Position numbers and translations under genes: made by a program. From an uncultured bacterium (GTDB taxonomy: Bacteria; Verrucomicrobiota; Lentisphaeria; Victivallales; UBA1829), in contig CASFTV010000008.1 of NCBI GenBank assembly GCA_949297765.1, positions 66,137-130,136 on the forward strand: 64,000 nt of DNA, read 5' to 3'. The notes beneath the pieces were generated by a model that was not told the origin of the DNA, searched no databases, and saw only the letters and a list, made by a program, of their open reading frames with translations. The stretch's first letter is position 1. Each line of letters opens with the position of its first letter. Positions 5,062 through 58,122 of this stretch are shown one piece after another.

Positions 5062-5150
5062 GCTCCGCCGTTCCCCGTCCCGCGCGCCCCCTCCGGACGG
5101 TTGACAGAATCCTTTCCGCGAACCGGAACATTCACAGAAAGGATAGTCTT

Positions 5151-6548
5151 ATGATTCGAAATTCGATCGGCGCGCCCGGACTGGTGAACCCGCAGTACCG
5201 CTACGCCCTGGAAGACTGGTGCAAATGCGACGACTGTTTCGCCGGGGAACGGGAAATCAAAGAGGCGGGAGAGACCTATCTCCCCCGGACAGAAGGACAG
5301 ATGGCGGATCCGCAGTTCGGCTCTCAACGCTATGAAGCCTACAAGTCCCGGGCGAACTATTTCAACTACTTTTTCTCCGCCGCGGCGACCATGCTGGGAA
5401 TCATGCACCGGGAACCGCCGGAAGCGGTCGAACTTCCGGAACGGATCCGCTCCCTCCGCCGCCGGGCGTCCAGCGACGGACTGCCGCTGACGGACACGCT
5501 CCGCCGTCTGAATCTGCTTCAGCTTGTCTATGGCCGCTGCGGAGTCCTGCTCGACGCTCCGCCGGAAACGCCGTCTCCCAATGCGGTTCCCGTGATGACC
5601 CTCTATCCGGCGCATCGGATTCTGGACTGGGAATGCGGAAACGGCCCCTCCTCTCCGCTGAGTTCCCTGCTGCTGGATGAATCCTGCTGGGAGCGCCGAA
5701 ACGGCCTCTGGACCTTCCAGCGACGGGTCCGGCTCTGCGCACTCTCACCCGAAGGAGAGTATTTCTCCGTTCTTCTGACGCCGGAAGAATATGCCTCGCT
5801 TTCCTCCGCGCCGCTGAATCTTTCCGAAGAATTCTTTCCGGAAATCCGCGGCCGGCGTCTGCGCCGGATTCCCTTTGTTTTCGCCAATGTGACGGATTCC
5901 TGTCCGGATGTGCAGAAACCGCCGCTTCTGGCGCTGGCGAATCTCTGCCTGGCGATCTACCGCGGCGAAGCGGATTACCGGCATGCCCTGTTCATGCAGG
6001 GGCAGTCCACGCTGTTCCTGAAGGGCTTTCAGCTCGACGGCCCCCCGATGATGGGCGCCGGAAACTACATCCACACAGAGTCGCCCGACGCCTCCGGAGG
6101 ATTTCTGGAAATCTCCGGGACCGGTCTTCAGGAGATGCGCGCTGCGCAGAACGACCTGCACGAGATGGCGCAGAACATGGGGATCTCGCTCGACAACTGG
6201 TCGAACAACGAATCGGGGGAAGCACTGAAGACCCGTCTCGCGGTGAAGACCGCCCTCATGCGCGCCATTGCGGAAACCGGCGAGAAAAGCCTCCAGCACC
6301 TCCTCCGCATCGCAGCCGAATGGAGCGGCGCCGATCCCGACGAGGTCGTGTTCAGCGTCAATCGGGACTTCAACGAGGGCGGCGTCTCCGCATCCGACGT
6401 TCTGGAACTCTGGAACGCCAAGAATGCCGGACTCCCCCTCTCCGCCCGCAGCATTCATGAGTGGCTGCGCCGGAACGATTTCACCGACGCCTCCTACGAC
6501 GAAGAACTCGAACGCATCCGGCAGGACGGGAAAACGCCGTCTGTCTGA
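5151..6548 (+). CDS. DUF4055 phage portal-like protein (orphan)
   Basis: Protein of 465 residues resembling the DUF4055 family, which in tailed phages sits at the portal position between terminase and head genes. Matching features are the early segment RYEAYKSRANYFNYFFSAAA followed by MLGIMHREPP, LVYGRCGVLLDAP, VQKPPLLALANLCLAIY and the later GEALKTRLAVKTALM region. An AAAGGA box lies 8 bases before the ATG. No terminase, capsid, tail or integrase gene is nearby: the left neighbour is nfo and the right is argB in the opposite direction. The reading frame is intact, which is unusual for a decayed prophage. It may be a domesticated portal or a trace of a larger element. Family assignment is from remembered motifs and not from a search. 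Confidence 0.65.
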   Translation: MIRNSIGAPGLVNPQYRYALEDWCKCDDCFAGEREIKEAGETYLPRTEGQMADPQFGSQRYEAYKSRANYFNYFFSAAATMLGIMHREPPEAVELPERIRSLRRRASSDGLPLTDTLRRLNLLQLVYGRCGVLLDAPPETPSPNAVPVMTLYPAHRILDWECGNGPSSPLSSLLLDESCWERRNGLWTFQRRVRLCALSPEGEYFSVLLTPEEYASLSSAPLNLSEEFFPEIRGRRLRRIPFVFANVTDSCPDVQKPPLLALANLCLAIYRGEADYRHALFMQGQSTLFLKGFQLDGPPMMGAGNYIHTESPDASGGFLEISGTGLQEMRAAQNDLHEMAQNMGISLDNWSNNESGEALKTRLAVKTALMRAIAETGEKSLQHLLRIAAEWSGADPDEVVFSVNRDFNEGGVSASDVLELWNAKNAGLPLSARSIHEWLRRNDFTDASYDEELERIRQDGKTPSV

Positions 6549-57633: not shown

Positions 57634-58122
57634 ATGGCATCCGCACAGGAAATCGCACAGGCACTGGGACTTCAGGAACATTGCGAGGGAGGCATGTTCC
57701 GGGAGCTGTTCCGTTCCGTCGTCCGCACACATGCGACCAAACAGCGGCGGGCCGCAACCAGTATTTTCTATCTGCTGCGCGGGAAGGAGATCTCCCGCTG
57801 GCACATGGTCAAGTCCGACGAGATCTGGATGTACCACGCCGGTTCACCCGCCATCCAGCTTCTGCTGCTCCCCGACGGGACGTTTGAAGAGCGGATTGTC
57901 GGCCCCGATGTCCTCGGCGGCGAGTTTCCCCAGAGTCTCATTCCCGCATGGACATGGCAGAGCACCGTCCTTCTCGACCGGTCCGAGGAAAGCTGGGGAT
58001 TGTTCGGCGCGGTCGTCTGCCCCGGCTTTGAATATGAAGATTATGCGGAAGGTTCCGCGGAAGAGCTCATTCAACGGTATCCCGAAGCCAAAGACCGCAT
58101 TCTGGAACTCGGGCTTGCATGA
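57634..58122 (+). CDS. DUF985 cupin-superfamily protein
   Basis: Protein of 162 residues in the DUF985 (Cupin_5) family. Characteristic stretches: LGLQEHCEGGMFRELFRS near the N-terminus, TSIFYLLRGKEISRWHMVKSDEIWMYHAG (cupin box with His and Glu residues), VVCPGFEYEDYAEGS near the C-terminus. Function is unknown for the family; a small-molecule isomerase or metal-binding role has been suggested. No clear Shine-Dalgarno precedes the ATG, which lies soon after a terminator hairpin, so initiation may be leaderless or from an unseen promoter. Confidence 0.85.
   Translation: MASAQEIAQALGLQEHCEGGMFRELFRSVVRTHATKQRRAATSIFYLLRGKEISRWHMVKSDEIWMYHAGSPAIQLLLLPDGTFEERIVGPDVLGGEFPQSLIPAWTWQSTVLLDRSEESWGLFGAVVCPGFEYEDYAEGSAEELIQRYPEAKDRILELGLA

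Follow-up and report, generated by a model that had tools for sequence, protein, structure and literature searches.

The window, a stretch of 64,000 nucleotides, is taken from genome G000 of genus g1 (C8:66137-130136), a draft of 4.23 Mb in 92 contigs that is 98% complete. It carries one gene of a phage virion, together with two upstream elements:

5098-5106, + strand: nine-base element CGGTTGACA, promoter-like or activator-site-like, 44 nt ahead of the portal start
5137-5143, + strand: ribosome-binding site of the portal gene, GAAAGGA, read from the sequence
5151-6548, + strand: portal protein gene, orphan unit 1 of a dispersed virion set (phrog_145, E 2.1e-93; DUF4055, E 4.2e-17)

The portal reading frame starts with ATG and encodes 465 amino acids with no internal stop. 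It matches the PHROG portal family phrog_145 over essentially its full length (residues 12-461 of 465 on profile positions 13-467 of 493), and Pfam DUF4055 over residues 258-391; the match to Pfam SPP1_portal (E 3e-4) lies under the family cut-off. The family profile matches portal chains in the PDB down to E 4e-33, and the best annotated phage matches have 36% identity over 97-98%. The first-pass annotation had regarded a better family than DUF4055 as a point against its assignment; phrog_145 is such a family, but it is likewise one of portals. Upstream lies the gene for AP endonuclease (nfo), and downstream are those for an argB-type amino-acid kinase, ArgJ and QueF. A CinA-family gene (competence-damaged protein domain) occupies positions 463-2145, ~3 kb upstream of the portal. 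The description of an intact portal gene with its own ribosome-binding site amid housekeeping genes is thus correct, and the statement that no other phage gene lies within the 64 kb agrees both with the annotated reading frames of the window and with searches for terL, capsid, tube and tip, all of which were negative there.

The idea of a single intact portal did not survive a search of the rest of the genome. The portal itself is present in one copy, but the terminase, capsid and tail genes that the annotation had proposed to look for are all present at other loci, so that genes for TerL, TerS, scaffold, capsid, adaptor, neck, terminator-like, tube, tip and fibre proteins are dispersed in G000. 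They form at least eight virion units including that of the portal, on contigs C8, C30, C1 (two), C4, C3, C5 and C6. The virion genes are not contiguous as in an ordinary prophage; the units lie far apart with host genes between them. The units outside the window are:

C30:1327-2736: terL, a complete orphan gene, to which a weak terminase match gave the lead
C30, upstream of terL with overlapping frames: its unit partners, an Hc1-like gene, Neck1 and a tail-terminator-like gene
C1:407355-408269: capsid, 57% identical to that of the prophage in genome G041
C1, with the capsid: scaffold, a decoration-like gene and adaptor Ad1
C4:137036: tail tube, accompanied by a chaperone-like gene and, at the tape-measure position, one of 100 aa
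C1:289969-290913: tail tip (tip1), with two more genes behind
C5:84207-84533: TerS, 108 aa, found by means of the element; aligns with prophage TerS over ~100 residues
C3:79527-80699: fibre locus, 390 aa, the first ~52 residues like a prophage fibre (E 0.002)
C6, starting at 57901: collagen-like fibre locus (phrog tail fibre, E 2e-15), with a second fibre-like gene next to it

Portal, TerL, TerS, scaffold, capsid, Ad1, Neck1 (phrog_169, E 6e-24), tube and tip1 are assigned as Caudoviricete-derived particle proteins by significant similarity. The names Hc1-like, tail-terminator-like, decoration-like and mini-tape-measure are given from position and weak similarity, with E 0.015 in the case of the terminator-like gene. 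PHROGs contained no useful match for the Hc1-like, decoration-like, tip2 and tip3 proteins, which are named by position and similarity to relatives. The 100-aa gene matches phrog_1538 at E 0.022, and its position and ends resemble the G041 tape measure; its identification as a tape measure is weak.

The unit search was guided by the G041 prophage and by phage contigs. An initial search for TerL with Pfam PF03237 gave one sub-threshold match of 20.1 bits, later recognized as the orphan terL, and PF03354 gave none. A scan of viral contigs with the tube alignment returned only two short contigs, and the later tail genes were therefore taken from G041. Against the PDB the capsid profile weakly matched two phage capsids (E 0.005 and 0.04) and the TerL profile matched nothing. 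The capsid and tip1 were modelled with AlphaFold at a mean pLDDT of 34 and 49, respectively, too poor for use, and nothing is drawn from the models; a Foldseek search with that of tip1 had no match at E <=0.001, and a phage baseplate protein headed its list at E 0.06. A gp7-type head protein, sought in nine genomes, was not found in G000, G017 or G023, and in G010 there is a weak match of 47 aa (E 4e-4) in the list of reading frames. No full-length tape measure was found in G000 with the partial phage tape measure of contig L068 as query, nor were lysis genes or a regulator, the element scan described below covering 41% of the genome. At L278:4207-5965 (G000:C5) the TerS-like gene lies immediately ahead of ftsA and an ftsZ-like gene.

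The nearest relatives found are the prophage of G041 (Lentisphaerae bacterium GWF2_44_16) and phage contigs L059, L068 and L146. Identity between the G041 prophage and the G000 set is 63% for TerL, 57% for the major capsid protein, 56-59% for the tube and 48% for the portal. In the prophage and phage contigs the genes are contiguous in the order terS-terL-portal-gp7-scaffold-capsid and, after a contig break, terminator-tube-tape measure-tip, whereas in G000 they are dispersed. Two further differences in arrangement are that terL follows the tail terminator in G000 and that the Hc1-like unit carries an element of its own. The prophage tape measure is 566 aa long, compared with 100 aa for the candidate in G000. 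Just upstream of the prophage TerS is a phage glucosyltransferase-like gene (L012:5884-6618; phrog_842, E 4e-16). A further, near-identical prophage occurs in two species of genus g6 (L013 in G029, L014 in G028), with terL 50-51% and portal ~30-31% identical to that of the window, and has these two genes separated by a long tape-measure-like one.

A portal match is present in seven of 61 genomes. These are G000, three species of genus g8 (the draft genomes G010, G017 and G023) and three genomes with a prophage-type copy (G041 at 48-49% identity, G028 and G029 at 31%). The g8 orthologues are intact, stand alone, and are 60-62% identical to the window portal. A strong capsid match occurs in five of the 61 genomes; rows in G007, G012 and G041 with E 0.03-0.06 were treated as chance. 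TerL matches at E 0.001 occur in 22 of the 61, six of them with >=50% identity, to which a 47-aa piece at a contig end in G017 is added; the other TerL rows are other terminases at 24-30% identity. The tail tube was matched in 5/198, and tip1 in all four genomes searched.

The g8 drafts were searched for the five units found first, and each has all five amid host genes, with a mostly identical set of neighbours across the species. The main partners within units are the same in G000 and g8, and the chromosomal positions differ between the two genera. In g8, Neck1 was not seen in the terL unit, nor a tape-measure-like gene behind the tube. The g8 tip operon extends further, through tip4, a gene for a repeat-rich fibre and one of 125 aa; the fibre (L184:13209-14405, L185:5626-6606, L186:5347-6903) varies in length between species (398, 326 and 518 aa) and contains repeats of one motif. 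Portal, capsid and tube were without a match in the three other g1 species searched, from which it follows that the virion set is dispensable. The first-pass annotation had foreseen as an adverse outcome a gene restricted to this strain and decayed in relatives; the intact, solitary orthologues in three g8 species speak against this, while the three congeners searched do indeed have no portal.

The DNA ligase gene ligA served as a yardstick for the distance between the genera. The G000 and g8 proteins are 60% identical, and this type is confined to g1 and g8 among 46 genomes, the others being at ~30%. At the ligA loci examined (L187-L193) the NAD-dependent DNA ligase is 60-61% identical between g1 and g8 and ~30% in other relatives; three g1 genomes have a second, more ordinary ligA match. 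Because of the restricted distribution of this ligA type, g1 and g8 look like close kin, and the three other g1 species have probably lost the virion set.

The virion head and tube genes are under purifying selection in g8. Omega was calculated by NG86 among the three g8 species, values against G000 being mostly saturated and left out. It is lowest for capsid (0.013-0.069), terL (0.045-0.063, the G017 values coming from 51 codons), portal (0.047-0.073) and tube (0.053-0.104), all in the range of the host genes ligA (0.035-0.068), ahpC (0.034-0.081) and dxs (0.10-0.15). Selection on the portal in relatives, for which the annotation had suggested a check, is thereby confirmed. Values are higher for the scaffold (0.09-0.14), tip1 (0.10-0.14), Ad1 (0.10-0.25), the decoration-like (0.12-0.29) and Hc1-like (0.19-0.21) genes, tip2, tip3 and the chaperone-like gene (0.14-0.29), the fibre (0.20-0.23) and tip4 (0.28-0.35). 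The head and tube genes overall span 0.013-0.29.

The synonymous divergence of the units tracks that of their host neighbours. Between G023 and G017 it is 0.23 for the capsid, compared with 0.21 for pyrH and 0.48 for the flavoprotein gene, and 0.93 for the portal, compared with 1.03 for ligA and 1.08 for ahpC. For most units the order of divergence is also that of ligA, i.e. G023-G017, then G010, then G000. The joint divergence of unit and neighbour fits vertical inheritance of the units; the lack of the set in the three g1 congeners speaks against it. TerL was also placed in a tree of 45 rows, made up of the 40 best long matches among 80 viral loci, of two prophage copies and of the three orphan proteins of full length; the orphans form one clade (100/99) adjoining the G041 prophage (99/88).

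The units share a nine-base element. It was first spotted by eye as GGTTGACA before three G000 units. In the form CGGTTGACA it precedes the first gene of 19 of the 20 units (five per genome, four genomes), the sole inexact case being the G010 tip unit with CAGTTGACA. It is present at all eight known G000 units and at 15/15 g8 unit heads examined, one of these with a single base changed. The window holds one exact copy, that at the portal. A scan of 1,725,342 distinct bases of G000 (41% of the genome) gave 16 exact sites. In eight cases a start codon with a ribosome-binding site comes 36-57 nt later, and every one of these eight sites heads a virion unit. Behind the other eight there is no reading frame of >=60 aa with a ribosome-binding site and start; one of the exact copies outside the virion units, at L232:18280 (G000:C1:318280), is intergenic-looking, with no gene with a ribosome-binding site behind it. 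From the rate of these eight other sites on both strands, the expected chance of a site in a 41-nt window is ~1/10,000, and its occurrence at all five units found by homology is therefore not due to chance. A chance motif was rejected also on the grounds that the element, seen at three G000 units, held at the other two and at fifteen g8 units, and that its use as a probe led to three new virion units (terS and the two fibre loci).

Element-type sequence at operon heads is common to the G000 units, the G041 prophage, L059 and L068. In G041 this kind of element (core TTGAC) precedes terS, portal, scaffold (as exact CGGTTGACA), tube, tip1 and fibre, and is absent before terL, gp7, capsid, decoration, tape measure, tip2 and tip3; the region upstream of the terminator is masked. 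TAGTTGACA stands before the scaffold in L059 and L068, and before the tube in L068, and no element was found upstream of scaffold or tube in L146 or of the scaffold in L071. TTGACA is a common -35 hexamer, and the prophage matches are therefore weaker evidence than those in the host genomes. The element most likely originated in the ancestral phage as a promoter, or an activator site, for late transcription, and the genome of that phage would have come apart at its late transcription units.

The identities of the genes, their dispersal in four genomes, the kept composition of the units, the purifying selection, the divergence alongside neighbours and the shared element are best explained by a domesticated siphophage. 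Its late genes would have been parted between transcription units and spread around the chromosome, and would now make a DNA-carrying particle like a gene-transfer agent (GTA); we give this a probability of roughly 0.7. As each unit starts behind a copy of CGGTTGACA, the units are probably co-activated. In some cells a host regulator would read the element and activate every unit. The head of what would be a small particle would be formed by capsid, scaffold and portal, with TerS and TerL packing DNA, while Ad1, the Hc1-like protein, Neck1 and the terminator would connect the head to a short tube, and tip and fibres would attach to the target cell. Since no phage genome remains, the portal-terminase motor would fill the head with stretches of host DNA, which the particle would carry into other cells, a transfer that we infer from the gene content. 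The dispersal of the units excludes their packaging as one piece, and since no single fragment holds all of them the packed DNA would have to be mostly other host DNA. In siphophages the length of the tail follows that of the tape measure, and a very short tail is thus predicted from the weakly identified 100-aa candidate. Quick-changing fibres beside a nearly fixed capsid would fit targets that shift while the machine stays constant. We also lean, somewhat less firmly, towards the view that this is an 'exploded' GTA, an independent viriform lineage in Lentisphaeria in which each late unit was relocated and the tape measure shrank from 566 to 100 aa; the relocated units may have stayed functional because each keeps the ancestral late promoter element.

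Fragmented assembly could in principle scatter the pieces of one prophage onto wrong contigs, as all four genomes are in ~92-230 contigs and the G000 terL unit begins 216 bases from a contig end. Yet the portal lies 71 kb inside a 132-kb contig, the capsid and tip units are ~118 kb apart on one 413-kb contig, and the same host neighbours (ligA-ahpC, radical SAM, queC with the flavoprotein gene, dxs) recur in three separate g8 drafts, making an artefact extremely improbable. The same low standing is given to the idea that the units belong to an element that still moves, its late genes scattered in pieces and dependent on a helper phage for expression. Activation of the units by a related phage is conceivable, given the resemblance of their element to those upstream of G041 prophage genes, but no integrase or mobile-element repeat was noticed at the units in the lists of reading frames, and the joint divergence of unit and neighbour fits vertical descent.

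A more serious alternative, though still an improbable one, is that the genes are the remains of an old prophage, scattered by chromosome rearrangement and functionless today. The failure to find gp7 and a long tape measure, the three congeners without the set and the fast change of tip and fibre genes are all in keeping with this. However, among the units found none is broken by a stop, except for the contig-end terL of G017, unit composition and upstream element are kept across two genera with 60% identity in ligA, and omega in the host-gene range for portal, terL, capsid and tube, sustained at so low a level, is not given by decay. Slightly better placed, and yet unlikely, is a domesticated dispersed particle with another use such as killing rivals or carrying protein, to which DNA packing would be incidental. 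Domesticated phage particles with other roles exist, host-keyed fibres would change fast as seen here, and the mini tape measure points to a tail that has changed greatly. A killing tail needs neither TerL, TerS nor portal, however, and all three are kept, with terL and portal among the more conserved genes.

Few gene-transfer agents are known. A full-text search of one library gave no GTA report for Lentisphaeria and none of a phage whose core genes are spread out as single units. Gut GTA activity is described in Oscillospiraceae and Ruminococcaceae in the excerpted text of PMC12946183, in which Lentisphaerae, Victivallales and Verrucomicrobia are unmentioned. In the Bartonella screen outlined in the excerpts of PMC9662315 the criterion was TerL and capsid within 5 kb; phage-cluster screens would miss the G000 set, as its units each look like an isolated orphan. 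If the preferred reading is true, gut bacteria of a group with none reported in the literature searched have a gene-exchange system, and a phage genome has dissolved into a host regulon. With the element as a sequence signature, the regulator and the parts still missing can be sought in a testable way; under the 'exploded' reading the element would make the whole regulon readable from sequence.

Gene-transfer agents, with which the first-pass annotation had compared the portal, are the proper comparison. The GTA features listed in the excerpted sections of PMC9662315 include caudoviricete-derived proteins, multi-locus endogenisation and mostly vertical inheritance with co-diversification of agent and host, and also the packing of mostly random host DNA, a head too small for the agent's own genome, and delivery to cells. 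Caudoviricete-derived particle proteins and genes endogenised in the host at multiple loci are present here, and vertical inheritance would fit the joint divergence of units and neighbours, if not the three congeners that lack the set; on these grounds we call the system GTA-like, a term set short of a proven GTA for a system known here from its genes. Pseudomonas phage PaMx25 (Nipunavirus, Queuovirinae) has a portal of the same family, with 36% identity over 97% of the query, and a similar order of head and connector genes, but is a complete phage genome of 57.9 kb. BaGTA (Bartonella) and BhGTA (Brachyspira) are, as is proposed for the G000 set, independent domestications of tailed phages, in other bacterial phyla; according to the excerpts of PMC9662315 the BaGTA genes occupy one region of ~79 kb and those of BhGTA are likely dispersed. 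Another parallel is to RcGTA and the Rhodogtaviriformidae, the alphaproteobacterial type I agents, where Caudoviricete-derived genes are likewise fixed at several host loci (five for RcGTA in the same excerpts); vertical descent would be a further common trait. The progenitor phage appears to be another one by portal and TerL family; in the TerL tree of viral loci, prophages and orphan proteins the G000 protein groups with Lentisphaerae phage and prophage sequences. In RcGTA most of the structural genes lie in one main cluster, whereas in G000 terL, portal, capsid, tube and tip each stand separately, joined by the nine-base element.
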